64,000 nucleotides of DNA. It comes from Alphaproteobacteria bacterium (GTDB lineage: Bacteria; Pseudomonadota; Alphaproteobacteria; ATCC43930; CGMCC-115725). The translations under genes and the position numbers were made by a program. Within the stretch, counting starts at the first letter, position 1, and each line of letters begins with the position of its first letter. Below the pieces are notes generated by a model. It did not search any database. It had not been told where the DNA came from and saw only the letters and a program-made list of their open reading frames with translations. The stretch spans positions 1 through 64,000 of the forward strand of contig JAGWNF010000011.1 of the NCBI GenBank assembly GCA_028871455.1, given 5' to 3'. Positions 1,828-55,272 of the stretch are shown here, one piece after another.

Positions 1828-2259
1828 ATGCGTCCACCCAATTTACGCTATGCCGTCGATGAGCGGCCGCCGCCGTTGACCTGCGCGCTCAACGCGGCGC
1901 AGCACGTCATCATCCTGTCACCAGCACTGATCTATGTGCTGTTCGTGCTCGAGGCTGCACACGCCGGCAAGGCCGAGACGCTGCACGCCATCAGTCTGTC
2001 GCTCGTTGCGCTCGGGATCGGGGCGATCCTGCAGTGCCAGAAGCGTCGCTATTTCGGGTCGGGTTATCTGACGACCTTCGTCTTCGACGCGCCCTATCTG
2101 TCCGCCAGCGTTCTCGCCGCCCAGATCGCTCCGCCGCGAATTCGCTTGATGGGCGCTCTCGCATTTGTGCAATGCAGAAATGTCGGCTTGGTATACCACG
2201 GATTTGCCGTGCCCTGTGGCGAAATAGCGCGGGAAAATCATGGGCCCCAAGCCAACTGA
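1828..2259 (+). pseudogene. Truncated NCS2-type xanthine/uracil permease
   Basis: The first ~105 of 143 residues look like the N-terminus of NCS2 nucleobase permeases. There is a charged DERPPPLTC segment, then a first membrane helix with QHVIILSPALIYVLF, a second hydrophobic stretch, and a GSGYLTTF loop. Full NCS2 proteins have about 450 residues and 14 helices. Here the reading frame drifts into unrelated residues after about codon 105 and stops. A transporter of this size could not work, so this is a 5' fragment left after deletion of the rest. The sRNA gene begins about 50 bases downstream of its stop codon. Confidence 0.6.
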
Positions 2260-2271
2260 CAGGCTTTTGGC

Positions 2272-2305
2272 ATTGCATTGTGCGGCGCAATAGGCAATAT
2301 ATTGC
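2272..2305 (+). promoter_or_regulatory. Promoter and dyad region of the sRNA gene
   Basis: A sigma-70-like pair, TTGCAT (2273-2278) and CAATAT (2295-2300) with a 16-base spacer, would start transcription near 2308. The -10 box lies inside a perfect 12-base palindrome, GCAATATATTGC (2294-2305). The 9-mer ATTGCATTG occurs twice, at 2272-2280 and 2301-2309. A dyad over a -10 element suggests a repressor site, but no regulator can be named from sequence. Confidence 0.45.
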
Positions 2306-2307
2306 AT

Positions 2308-2397
2308 TGCGACACGGCCGTCGCCCGACGGTGTGTCGTACGTCTTCTAGGCGTTTCCTCCCTAAACTTGGGCCGCACTTGGTGCGGCCCTTTTTCT
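2308..2397 (+). ncRNA. MmgR/alpha-r8-like trans-acting small RNA
   Basis: Three parts sit in the order expected for the alphaproteobacterial alpha-r8 (MmgR) sRNA family. First is a 5' hairpin, CGACAC..GTGTCG with an inner CCGTCG/CGACGG stem (2310-2338). Next is an unpaired linker holding TTTCCTCCCT (2354-2363), the 10-base core reported as conserved in that family. Last is a Rho-independent terminator with stem GGCCGCAC/GTGCGGCC (2371-2389) and a T tract. The predicted length is about 88 nt; S. meliloti MmgR is about 77 nt. The CCUCCC core can pair with Shine-Dalgarno sequences. MmgR limits polyhydroxybutyrate accumulation in Sinorhizobium; the role here is inferred only. No reading frame covers it on the plus strand. 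Confidence 0.72.
2371..2396 (+). terminator. Rho-independent terminator of the sRNA
   Basis: A perfect 8-bp stem, GGCCGCAC (2371-2378) and GTGCGGCC (2382-2389), with a three-base loop is followed by C and five T. It forms the 3' hairpin of the sRNA. Confidence 0.85.
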
Positions 2398-2661: not shown

Positions 2662-3294
2662 TCATTCTTTAGCTTTTGGAGACGACTGCGGCTTCGCCTT
2701 AGCGATCTTCTTTAGCTTCGCTTCAAATGCTTCCTCGGATTCATCGGCCGCGACCTTGGGCAACGTCGCCGCGCCGGCACCGAGCGTGCGCTGCATCAAC
2801 ACGCAGTCGACCCAACGCCCGTGCTTGAAGCCGACCGCTGGCTGCACGCCGATCGGCGCGAAACCTGCGGTCTCGTGCAGCCGGATCGAGGCCGTGTTTG
2901 CGCTATCGCCGATCACCGCCACCATCTGGCGATAGCCCAGTGCGCTGCACCTCTCGATCAGCCGCGTCAGTAGCGCGCGGCCGATGCCGCGCCGCGCGAA
3001 ATCGGGTGCGATATAGATCGAATCCTCGACGGTGAAACGATATGCCGAGCGCATCCTATATAGCGCGGCATAGGCGTAGCCGACGACGCGTCCCACCGCC
3101 ACAGCGACCATGAAGGGCAGGCCTAGGGCCAGAACCGCTTCGCGACGGCGACGCATTTCCTCTGCCGGTGGCGGCACCTCTTTGAACGTGCCGAGGCCGA
3201 CCCGCACGTGATGCGCATAGATCGCTGCAATATTCTCGTCGTCGCCCGGTGCGGAGTCACATAGCATGAACCGGAACGAAGCGGCGTCGCTCAT
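2662..3294 (-). CDS. GNAT-family N-acetyltransferase (phosphinothricin-acetyltransferase-like)
   Basis: The 210-residue product has the order typical of PAT-type GNAT enzymes. An N-terminal strand leads to a conserved segment around IAAIYAHHV, the middle strand contains VVGYAYAALYR, the acetyl-CoA loop reads RRGIGRALL, and an NTASIRLHETAGF motif lies near the C-terminus. Such enzymes acetylate small amines such as methionine sulfoximine or phosphinothricin. About 35 residues beyond the usual 170-175 form a Lys/Ala/Ser-rich tail (FEAKLKKIAKAKPQSS), possibly nucleic-acid or membrane interacting. Its start overlaps the stop of the upstream amidohydrolase gene by 4 bases, so the two are probably translated together. 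Confidence 0.82.
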   Translation of the reverse strand: MSDAASFRFMLCDSAPGDDENIAAIYAHHVRVGLGTFKEVPPPAEEMRRRREAVLALGLPFMVAVAVGRVVGYAYAALYRMRSAYRFTVEDSIYIAPDFARRGIGRALLTRLIERCSALGYRQMVAVIGDSANTASIRLHETAGFAPIGVQPAVGFKHGRWVDCVLMQRTLGAGAATLPKVAADESEEAFEAKLKKIAKAKPQSSPKAKE

Positions 3295-4169
3295 GCCGGC
3301 CGCAGCAACTCCGGATCTATCGCGGACAGCTCCTCGACCAAGTCGCGCATGTCCTGTTCGAGCCGGCCCAGGAACGTCTTCCGCTCGAAGCTGCGCTCAT
3401 CCATGTACAGTGCCCGGTTTATCTCGATCTGCAGACAATGGCTGCCGACCGACGGTCGACCATAATGGGCCGTGGTGAAACCGCCGGCATAGGGCGTATT
3501 GAGTGCAGTGGAATAGCCTTTGGTATTGAGGACGCGGTGCGCGGTCTCGGTGATCGCGGGATGGCAGGCGGTGCCGTGACAGTCGCCGAGCACCATGTCG
3601 GCGCGGGAGGAACGGTCACGCCGGTCGCGATCGCCGCCGGCCGACGGCATTGAGTGGCAGTCAAGCACGATCGCGAAACCATAGCGCTCCTGTGTCGCGT
3701 CGAGCAGGTGCTTCAGCACGCGGTGGTACGGGCGATACAGCGTCTCGATCCGATGTGCCGCCTCGCTGAACCGGAGCTTGCGCGCGTAAATCTCCTCGCC
3801 CGAGGCTACCACGCGGGCGATGGTACCGAGGCCGACGCGCACGCGCGGCGAATGGCTGTTGACGAAGTTCGGCAGCAAGTCCTCGAACATGGTCGGATCG
3901 AGTTCGAAAGGCTCGCGGTTGGCGTCGACATAAGCGCGCGGAAAGCGGGCGCGCAGCAACGGCGCGCCGAGCGCGGGCGCGCCGCCGAAAATCTCGTCGA
4001 CATAGCTGTCTTCGGAACGTCGCAGCGTCAGGGCGTCGAGCCGCGACGCGGCCAGGAATGTGGCCGGATATTCGGCGCCAGAGTGCGGCGATGCGAGGAC
4101 AAGGGGTATTGCTTGTCCGCCATTGGCAAGAACTTCGACCGGTTCAGTCGCCGTCAACAGGCCGTGCAT
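3291..4169 (-). CDS. N-formylglutamate amidohydrolase family protein
   Basis: This 292-residue protein matches the FGase family (HutG-like), zinc hydrolases that split N-formyl-L-glutamate at the end of one histidine degradation route. Features seen are LASPHSGAEYP near residues 27-37, an NREPFELDP segment, the core VLDCHSMPS, and a C-terminal HCLQIEINRALYM. No hut genes lie nearby, so assignment to histidine catabolism is not supported by context. Members outside hut operons act on other formylated or N-acyl amino acids. It is the first gene of a two-gene unit with the GNAT protein. A second, more divergent family member lies at 21.0 kb. Confidence 0.8.
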   Translation of the reverse strand: MHGLLTATEPVEVLANGGQAIPLVLASPHSGAEYPATFLAASRLDALTLRRSEDSYVDEIFGGAPALGAPLLRARFPRAYVDANREPFELDPTMFEDLLPNFVNSHSPRVRVGLGTIARVVASGEEIYARKLRFSEAAHRIETLYRPYHRVLKHLLDATQERYGFAIVLDCHSMPSAGGDRDRRDRSSRADMVLGDCHGTACHPAITETAHRVLNTKGYSTALNTPYAGGFTTAHYGRPSVGSHCLQIEINRALYMDERSFERKTFLGRLEQDMRDLVEELSAIDPELLRPA

Positions 4170-21004: not shown

Positions 21005-21793
21005 ATGGTTTCATCGAACGTGATCAGTTTTGTGGCTCCAGACCCCGTCGAGATGCATGTCGCGGACGGGTCGCGCGTCATTCTGACCTGCGATCACGCG
21101 AGCAACCGCGTGCCGCGCGCGCTATCCCGGCTAGGCCTCGACGATGGAGTGCTGGCGCAGCACATCGGCTGGGATATCGGCGCCGCCGCGGTAACGCGGC
21201 ACCTGGCGACACGCCTCGGTGCGTCGGCGGTGCTCGCCGGTTATTCGCGGCTGGTGATTGATTGCAATCGCGATCCCGACGATCCGTCGTCGATTCCGGC
21301 CGTCAGCGACGACGTGGCGATACCCGGCAATCGCGGCTTGGCGGACGATGAACGTCACGCCCGGCAGACCGCGATCTTCGAGCCCTATCACAGGGCGGTC
21401 GCCCGATTGATCGATGCGGCGATGGTGCGGCATATCGTGCCGGCGCTGATCTCGGTTCACAGCTTTACGCCTTCGCTCGGCGGCCAGGTACGGCCGTGGC
21501 ATGTCGGAATCCTGTGGGACGGTGACGGTCGCATCCCGACGCCGCTCTTGGCGGCTTTGCGCGATGACGCGGCGCTGATGGTCGGAGACAACGAGCCCTA
21601 TTCCGCACGCGAACCGGCCGGCTATACGGTGCGCCATCACGCGCTCGAGCACGGTCTGCCGCACGTCGCGATCGAGATCCGCCAGGACGAGATCGCGGAC
21701 GCCGCCGGCGCGACGGCGTGGGCCGAACGGCTTGCCGCCGCGCTCGAACCGATTCTTGCAATGGATTCGCTCTATCGCCTCTGGCAAAAGTGA
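21005..21793 (+). CDS. N-formylglutamate amidohydrolase-like protein (second copy)
   Basis: A 262-residue FGase-family protein. It shows SRVILTCDHASNRVP near residues 20-35, LVIDCNRDPDDPSSIP, the zinc-region PALISVHSFTPSLGGQVRPW, and a C-terminal HVAIEIRQDEIA. It is shorter and diverged from the copy at 3.3 kb; this version (CDHASN start motif) is the subgroup often found alone in alphaproteobacteria. Its substrate is not known beyond formylated or acylated amino acids. It is divergent from glycerate kinase and 44 bases upstream of the DUF1244 gene, so it may be the first gene of a small operon. Confidence 0.8.
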   Translation: MVSSNVISFVAPDPVEMHVADGSRVILTCDHASNRVPRALSRLGLDDGVLAQHIGWDIGAAAVTRHLATRLGASAVLAGYSRLVIDCNRDPDDPSSIPAVSDDVAIPGNRGLADDERHARQTAIFEPYHRAVARLIDAAMVRHIVPALISVHSFTPSLGGQVRPWHVGILWDGDGRIPTPLLAALRDDAALMVGDNEPYSAREPAGYTVRHHALEHGLPHVAIEIRQDEIADAAGATAWAERLAAALEPILAMDSLYRLWQK

Positions 21794-31163: not shown

Positions 31164-31182
31164 GCGCGCTCCCGCAAAATCA

Positions 31183-31465
31183 GTGGGGGGCTTCTGTTGC
31201 CCGGTGCCCCCCGGACCGCGCTTACTTAGAGACTAAGCAGCGAGTGCGACAGTGTTATCGTTCGCACTTAGGTTTTGGCCCGATAACGGCGGTACCATGC
31301 CGGGCGAAAGACGCATCTTTATCACGCGCGTCGATCCTAGTTCGCCCCCGTGACGGTGCGGAGACGATCGCTCCGCGAAACTGGTGGAGGCGCCGGGTAC
31401 TGCCCCCGGGTCCGCAACGCTTATTTCATACGCTGTTTATCGCCATAGCCGGTTGCCCGGCACCC
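31183..31465 (-). ncRNA. ssrA: Permuted two-piece tmRNA
   Basis: On the minus strand the order is reversed compared with one-piece tmRNA. The acceptor piece comes first (about 31462-31382), with the T-arm CCGGG-GGCAGTA-CCCGG and a 3' end CGCCTCCACCA. An excised spacer follows (31381-31350) with a GCGGAG/CTCCGC hairpin. The coding piece (31349 to about 31185) begins GGGGGCG, which pairs with CGCCTCC of the acceptor end. Inside it, 31265-31233 read GCG AAC GAT AAC ACT GTC GCA CTC GCT GCT TAG. This gives the tag ANDNTVALAA, plus the alanine charged on the RNA. tmRNA rescues stalled ribosomes and marks products for ClpXP. A G6/C6 stem closes the 3' end. Confidence 0.9.
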
Positions 31466-31467
31466 TC

Positions 31468-31494
31468 AATATAGGCGCTTTCATTGCGGCTCAA
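31468..31494 (-). promoter_or_regulatory. Promoter of ssrA
   Basis: Reading the minus strand, TATATT (31473-31468) is a near-consensus -10 box about seven bases before the GGGTGCC 5' end. TTTGAG/TTGAGC (31495-31489) is a weaker -35 with a 15-16 base spacer. Confidence 0.55.
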
Positions 31495-31550
31495 AAGGGG
31501 CGGCGAGTCGGCCTTTGCGCGCCTTTCCCGCGCGGCTAGAGTCGCCGCCC

Positions 31551-55097: not shown

Positions 55098-55170
55098 ATG
55101 TTCTCCCCCCGCGTGGCCAGCATCTCACTTGACGAGGCTGGCAAGGAAGAGGTAGGCAATGACCGTTGAT

Positions 55171-55228
55171 TCGTGGCGATTTGACAGCCGACCGGCTTGC
55201 GGCCACGTAAAAAATCCCGCTAAAAGGT
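55171..55228 (+). promoter_or_regulatory. SAM-II riboswitch upstream of metZ
   Basis: The sequence fits the SAM-II aptamer. P1 is CGTGGC (55172-55177) with GCCACG (55202-55207). GATTTGA starts the first loop, the conserved TTGC (55197-55200) closes P1, and an A-rich linker leads to GCTAAAAGG (55219-55227), the pseudoknot strand that pairs with the loop. SAM-II binds S-adenosylmethionine and shuts off methionine genes in alphaproteobacteria. The next gene is metZ. Confidence 0.85.
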
Positions 55229-55230
55229 CG

Positions 55231-55272
55231 GAGGCTCGTCGGAGCCCTGACCCCTGCGGACAGGGCTTTTTT
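55231..55272 (+). terminator. Attenuator of metZ with alternative antiterminator
   Basis: Terminator stem AGCCCTG (55243-55249) and CAGGGCT (55261-55267) ends in six T. A competing hairpin GGCTC (55233-55237) / GAGCC (55242-55246) uses the left arm of the terminator, so the two cannot form together. Lying right after the SAM-II aptamer, it indicates control at transcription termination. Confidence 0.75.

Follow-up and report, generated by a model that had tools for sequence, protein, structure and literature searches.

The window analysed here, a 64 kb stretch of DNA taken at its full length, carries a small RNA gene of the αR8/MmgR family. A truncated permease gene lies upstream of it on the same strand, and two genes on the opposite strand lie downstream, encoding a GNAT acetyltransferase and a protein of the N-formylglutamate amidohydrolase family (FGase). 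The features of the locus, in window coordinates, are:

1828–2136, plus strand: 5′ remnant of a xanthine/uracil permease gene, residues 1–103 of 569, 79% identical to the intact protein of sister genome G001
2128–2150, plus strand: junction with a family III CoA-transferase gene, of which the tail (RREFA*) is present; in relatives this gene sits upstream of the RNA
2273–2278, plus strand: −35 element TTGCAT (TTGACT, TTGACA or TTGATT in relatives), from an alignment of 27 upstream regions
2281–2289, no strand assigned: predicted PhaR-box core TGCGGCGCA, between the two promoter elements, agreeing with the S. meliloti consensus at 18 of 21 positions
2296–2301, plus strand: −10 element AATATA (TAAATT or CATATT in relatives), from the same 27 upstream regions
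2303–2311, no strand assigned: predicted PhaR-box core TGCATTGCG, spanning the predicted start, agreeing with the S. meliloti consensus at 19 of 21 positions
2308–2397, plus strand: αR8/MmgR-family small RNA gene, predicted length about 90 nt, start ± 2–3 nt
2309–2338, plus strand: 5′ stem-loop, from fold prediction and compensatory changes
2340–2354, plus strand: weak second hairpin ACGUCUUCUAGGCGU, −4.3 kcal/mol, identical in all 24 aligned members of the subtype
2354–2363, plus strand: exact 10-mer core UUUCCUCCCU, an anti-Shine-Dalgarno-like seed, predicted single-stranded
2370–2397, plus strand: Rho-independent terminator, a stem of 9 pairs at 2370–2390 followed by a U tract
2662–3294, minus strand: GNAT acetyltransferase gene, separating the RNA from FGase, kept in the genus and in several relatives
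3291–4169, minus strand: FGase gene, PF05013, E = 1.7e-73

A scan against all Rfam families matched RF00519 at 2335–2405 on the plus strand with 54 bits, above the curated cut-off (GA) of 41 bits, and the alignment spans the whole model, from 1 to 77. The Rfam entry is named suhB and corresponds to MmgR, or αR8. Other Rfam matches at the site fall far under their own cut-offs. They include SorY (RF02651) of Rhodobacter, which likewise has a CCUCCC stretch ahead of its terminator; membership of that family was rejected, at 22.6 bits against a cut-off of 111. The 5′ end of the RNA was inferred from the conserved −10 element and the 3′ end was taken from the terminator, giving about 90 nt as against the 77 nt of S. 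meliloti MmgR. The length of 77 nt is a property of that RNA and does not define αR8. The DNA 10-mer TTTCCTCCCT at 2354–2363 occurs only this once in the 64 kb, both strands having been searched; its RNA form, when single-stranded, is the defining seed of αR8 (PMC12559287). The preliminary description had assigned the RNA to the αR8/MmgR family and proposed a covariance-model search as a check. The match found by that search, the exact 10-mer, the order of the structural elements and the FGase-linked locus described below together support this assignment, the window RNA being the FGase-linked canonical (SisA-like) copy.

The predicted fold of 2311–2397 has an energy of −40.9 kcal/mol (z = −5.1), a value reached by none of 200 shuffled sequences. 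It consists of three hairpins: the 5′ stem (−15.2 kcal/mol for 2311–2337 folded alone), the weak hairpin immediately 5′ of the core and, after the open core (about 90% unpaired), the terminator. Covariation was assessed in an alignment of 24 related sequences of the same subtype, in which 92% of the cells for the 28 proposed pairs are standard. Both sides of a pair had changed in 39 cells, compared with 13.9 in shuffled alignments, and none of 500 shuffles scored as high; no shifted pairing was more than 49% paired. These compensatory changes are located in the 5′ stem and the terminator stem. Neither the weak hairpin nor the core shows any variation, which leaves both uninformative by this measure. 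The strong 5′ hairpin, exact core and terminator first recognised from the sequence alone are thus all borne out, and the RNA combines a model match with compensatory changes in relatives.

The core starts near nucleotide 33–35 both in MmgR, where a deletion of 33–51 has been described (PMC8401924), and in SisA, where it corresponds to residues 33–45 (PMC12559287). In the window it begins about 46 nt past the predicted start, so that the 5′ part is some 12 nt longer. The preliminary description was therefore correct in calling the 5′ stem longer than that of MmgR. Its suggestion that the RNA might represent a divergent branch was rejected, because stems of a comparable kind are found in more distant relatives too; the longer stem is variation within the αR8 family.

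αR8 RNAs are widespread in Alphaproteobacteria. We searched a sample of 61 genomes, comprising the genome of the window and its relatives, and found an αR8 RNA above the cut-off in 49. The genomes with a related RNA that carry names are metagenome assemblies called Alphaproteobacteria, Rhodospirillales or Stellaceae bacterium, and we take the host to be an uncultured, Stellaceae-like member of a Rhodospirillales group that is mostly soil-derived, as read from isolate names. In most species one αR8 copy adjoins an FGase gene (PMC12559287). In our sample, 35 of the 49 genomes with the RNA have a copy no more than 5 kb from an FGase gene, and the two are convergent in all 35. In the window the FGase gene is also convergent with the RNA and only the GNAT gene intervenes. 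This is the usual neighbour of the family, and we therefore regard the window copy as the canonical, SisA-like one. Both family and locus are thus known already: the RNA is an ordinary new member at the usual chromosomal location. A second FGase-family gene in the window (21074–21694, plus strand) has no αR8 RNA beside it.

A generic promoter scan upstream of the RNA found nothing. Aligning 27 related loci on the core nevertheless identified the −35 and −10 elements listed above, separated by 17 nt in the window and by 16–17 nt across the related loci. As the pair is conserved across these loci, we consider the predicted promoter to be real but weak in the window, and the promoter-like pair noted earlier stands in that form.

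The same alignment showed the sequence TGCRNYGCG following the −10 element in related loci. In S. meliloti, PhaR (AniA) recognises WNWDDNYGCRNYGCRNHHWNW and binds the mmgR promoter (PMC12542648), and mmgR is repressed by PhaR (PMC12542648; PMC8401924). Using the core motif YGCRNYGCR and the 21-nt consensus from S. meliloti (PMC12542648), we found the core in all 26 upstream regions of the subtype, compared with a shuffled mean of 2.8, these loci being related rather than independent samples. The core over the start site is at about the same place after the −10 element in all 26. The core motif is present in 15 of 23 other αR8 copies and absent from the copies in the genus that are of the type found on contig C9 (see below). 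The two boxes of the window match the full 21-nt consensus at only 18 and 19 positions, and on its own the core motif is common, at one per 597 bp in the genome of the window. The left half of the start-site box lies outside the RNA stem and is still invariant in the 24-sequence alignment; the right half overlaps the stem, so that part of the conservation of the box may serve RNA structure. The promoter of the window RNA carries likely PhaR sites, a hint that the RNA became connected with storage earlier than one would conclude from the single species studied.

The genome of the window contains hfq, two phaC genes and four to five phasin genes, and PhaR boxes at its two best-scoring phasin genes match the consensus at 21/21, 20/21 and 20/21. 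A phasin promoter on its contig C8 (L054) bears two of these boxes (21/21 and 20/21) in an assembly in which phaR was not found. PhaR (PF07879) is present in 49 of the 61 genomes, including all three of the other genus members sampled, and was not found in the assembly of the window, which is 96% complete. In a sister genome phaR has an adjoining gene whose ortholog is likewise not found here; the region could therefore be missing from the assembly, or have been lost as a block. We considered reading this as a loss of PhaR and dropped it, one metagenome assembly being insufficient for such a claim. The absence weakens a PhaR step for this organism, and not for the lineage.

From the computed features, namely family, structure, locus, promoter, PhaR-type boxes and the presence of hfq, phaC and phasin genes, we infer a mode of action for the RNA. 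Its own sigma-70-type promoter would give rise to a transcript of about 90 nt that folds into three hairpins. Acting with Hfq, it would cover Shine-Dalgarno regions with the exposed UUUCCUCCCU and so repress translation of several mRNAs. PhaR would repress its transcription through the start-site box and the second box between −35 and −10. PHB granules bind PhaR and thereby remove it from the DNA, and the level of the RNA would then track the carbon-storage state of the cell. We give this reading as a whole, an FGase-linked αR8 RNA acting as an Hfq-aided repressor under control of the storage state through PhaR, a probability of roughly 0.7.

To our knowledge, αR8 RNAs have been studied in only two systems, S. 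meliloti, in connection with PHB, and Caulobacter, in connection with carbon starvation and a sponge RNA. The window RNA resembles S. meliloti MmgR in its core, terminator, weak hairpin and predicted PhaR-type promoter box, and its genome has PHB genes and hfq. It differs in copy number: S. meliloti has one, and this genome has two that pass the cut-off and a third that scores weakly. The effect on PHB, control by NtrC and binding of PhaR are features of S. meliloti MmgR, and a role as a brake on PHB would be carried over from that species by analogy.

The likeness to SisA of C. crescentus is also close: SisA too has several siblings, is the one linked to FGase, and exposes the same 10-mer in a stretch without pairing. 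The window RNA has the longer 5′ stem and a PhaR-type box at the start site, whereas no shared promoter motif has been reported for sisA–D of C. crescentus. In the principal alternative the RNA is a broad, near-constitutive repressor of transporter and outer-membrane mRNAs, as SisA is, with no PhaR control or special link to storage. SisA represses a large regulon with the core and architecture that the two RNAs share (PMC12559287), and the failure to find PhaR in the assembly fits this alternative, as do near-exact core complements at the start of an acetamidase/formamidase gene, at the start of an SDR gene and in the leader of an outer-membrane efflux gene. Against it, all 26 subtype loci have the PhaR-type core at one and the same position in the promoter, and the phasin promoters of the genome itself retain strong PhaR boxes. 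We consider this alternative improbable, though it deserves to be kept in mind.

Targets were sought by calculating seed duplex energies with 396 start regions sampled from about 450 kb. Averaged over these regions, pairing was no different from that of shuffled seeds. The seed resembles an anti-Shine-Dalgarno sequence, and chance pairing at start regions is therefore expected. The preliminary description had anticipated many mRNA targets, and pairing of CCUCCC with the starts of phaC and phasin mRNAs in particular. No convincing target emerged from the 396 regions. Phasin and phaC starts do not stand out: only some could be scored automatically, some of them on a doubtful frame, and those that were scored are no better than average. 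The best candidate in terms of function, ntrX, pairs over 12 bp in this genome; it was rejected because the pairing is not conserved in the relatives with a findable start (9 loci). A perfect 12-nt complement to the seed directly precedes the ATG of the acetamidase/formamidase gene (contig C30, 6502–6513, minus strand, L090), which makes that gene a candidate target, as a lead only.

Caulobacter has the sponge RNA CrfA. No CrfA-like sponge was found in the whole genome among complements of the core with at most one mismatch; these are the RNA gene itself, start regions, or sites bearing no sign of a small RNA. The site at position 90496 of contig C9, which has a hairpin alongside, was rejected as a sponge, being the leader of an efflux-protein gene.

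What is new here is the predicted control of an αR8 RNA by PhaR in a third lineage. As an evolutionary reading we propose, at slightly less than even odds, that PhaR control of the FGase-linked αR8 RNA is old in Alphaproteobacteria and not a rhizobial peculiarity, that the box settled over the start in this Rhodospirillales lineage, and that only the canonical copy, and not its siblings, is tied to storage. A conserved PhaR-type box at the FGase-linked copy of a third lineage would link αR8 RNAs with carbon storage more broadly, and may help to explain why genomes retain several siblings that share a seed under different promoters.

The upstream permease, described earlier as dead, is indeed truncated at residue 103 of 569, and the remainder of the gene is absent from the genome. 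Its junction with the CoA-transferase gene end marks a rearrangement that took place upstream of the promoter, unless the assembly is at fault there, as is possible. The RNA gene beside it is intact, the remnant forms no part of it, and the truncation is incidental to the RNA. One could suppose that the rearrangement that killed the permease left a decaying, unexpressed RNA copy: the truncated gene has replaced the usual upstream gene, relatives have stronger promoter elements than TTGCAT (−35) and AATATA (−10), and a second copy above the cut-off exists on C9. The rearrangement, however, is about 140 bp upstream of the −35 element, conservation from promoter to terminator equals that in three sister genomes, and the core, weak hairpin and terminator are invariant, making decay very unlikely. 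That the element is merely a terminator or 3′ UTR of an upstream permease or CoA-transferase transcript, as the same-strand gene upstream of the RNA in the genus might suggest, can be practically dismissed, given the conserved −35/−10 spacing directly upstream, the swap of the upstream gene while the element was kept, and the end-to-end match to the Rfam model.

The free-standing, FGase-linked αR8 RNA has siblings. The second copy above the cut-off in the genome, on contig C9, scores 50.7 bits, and copies of this type also occur in two other genus members. The weak third match (C16, 31506–31579, minus strand, L003) scores 28.6 bits, under the Rfam cut-off, and has a changed core, TATCCTCCCAAGG; it may be a sibling that has acquired a new seed. 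A further sibling type, with core CTCCTCCCT, is present in all three other genus members. Sister genome G001 has two near-identical RNA copies in differing surroundings on contigs C250 and C380 (L043 and L035), one at FGase and the other on a contig that also bears a beta-CASP gene; either a segment was duplicated or the bin contains two strains. In sister genome G003 (L042, 4902–5882), a transposase-like gene directly follows the RNA, and may be the reason for the lost FGase link of that copy. Elsewhere in the window a tmRNA gene lies at 31182–31500 (minus strand), where the alphaproteobacterial and permuted Rfam models both match, as is expected of a two-piece tmRNA, and a SAM-alpha riboswitch lies at 55163–55243 (plus strand, 61 bits).
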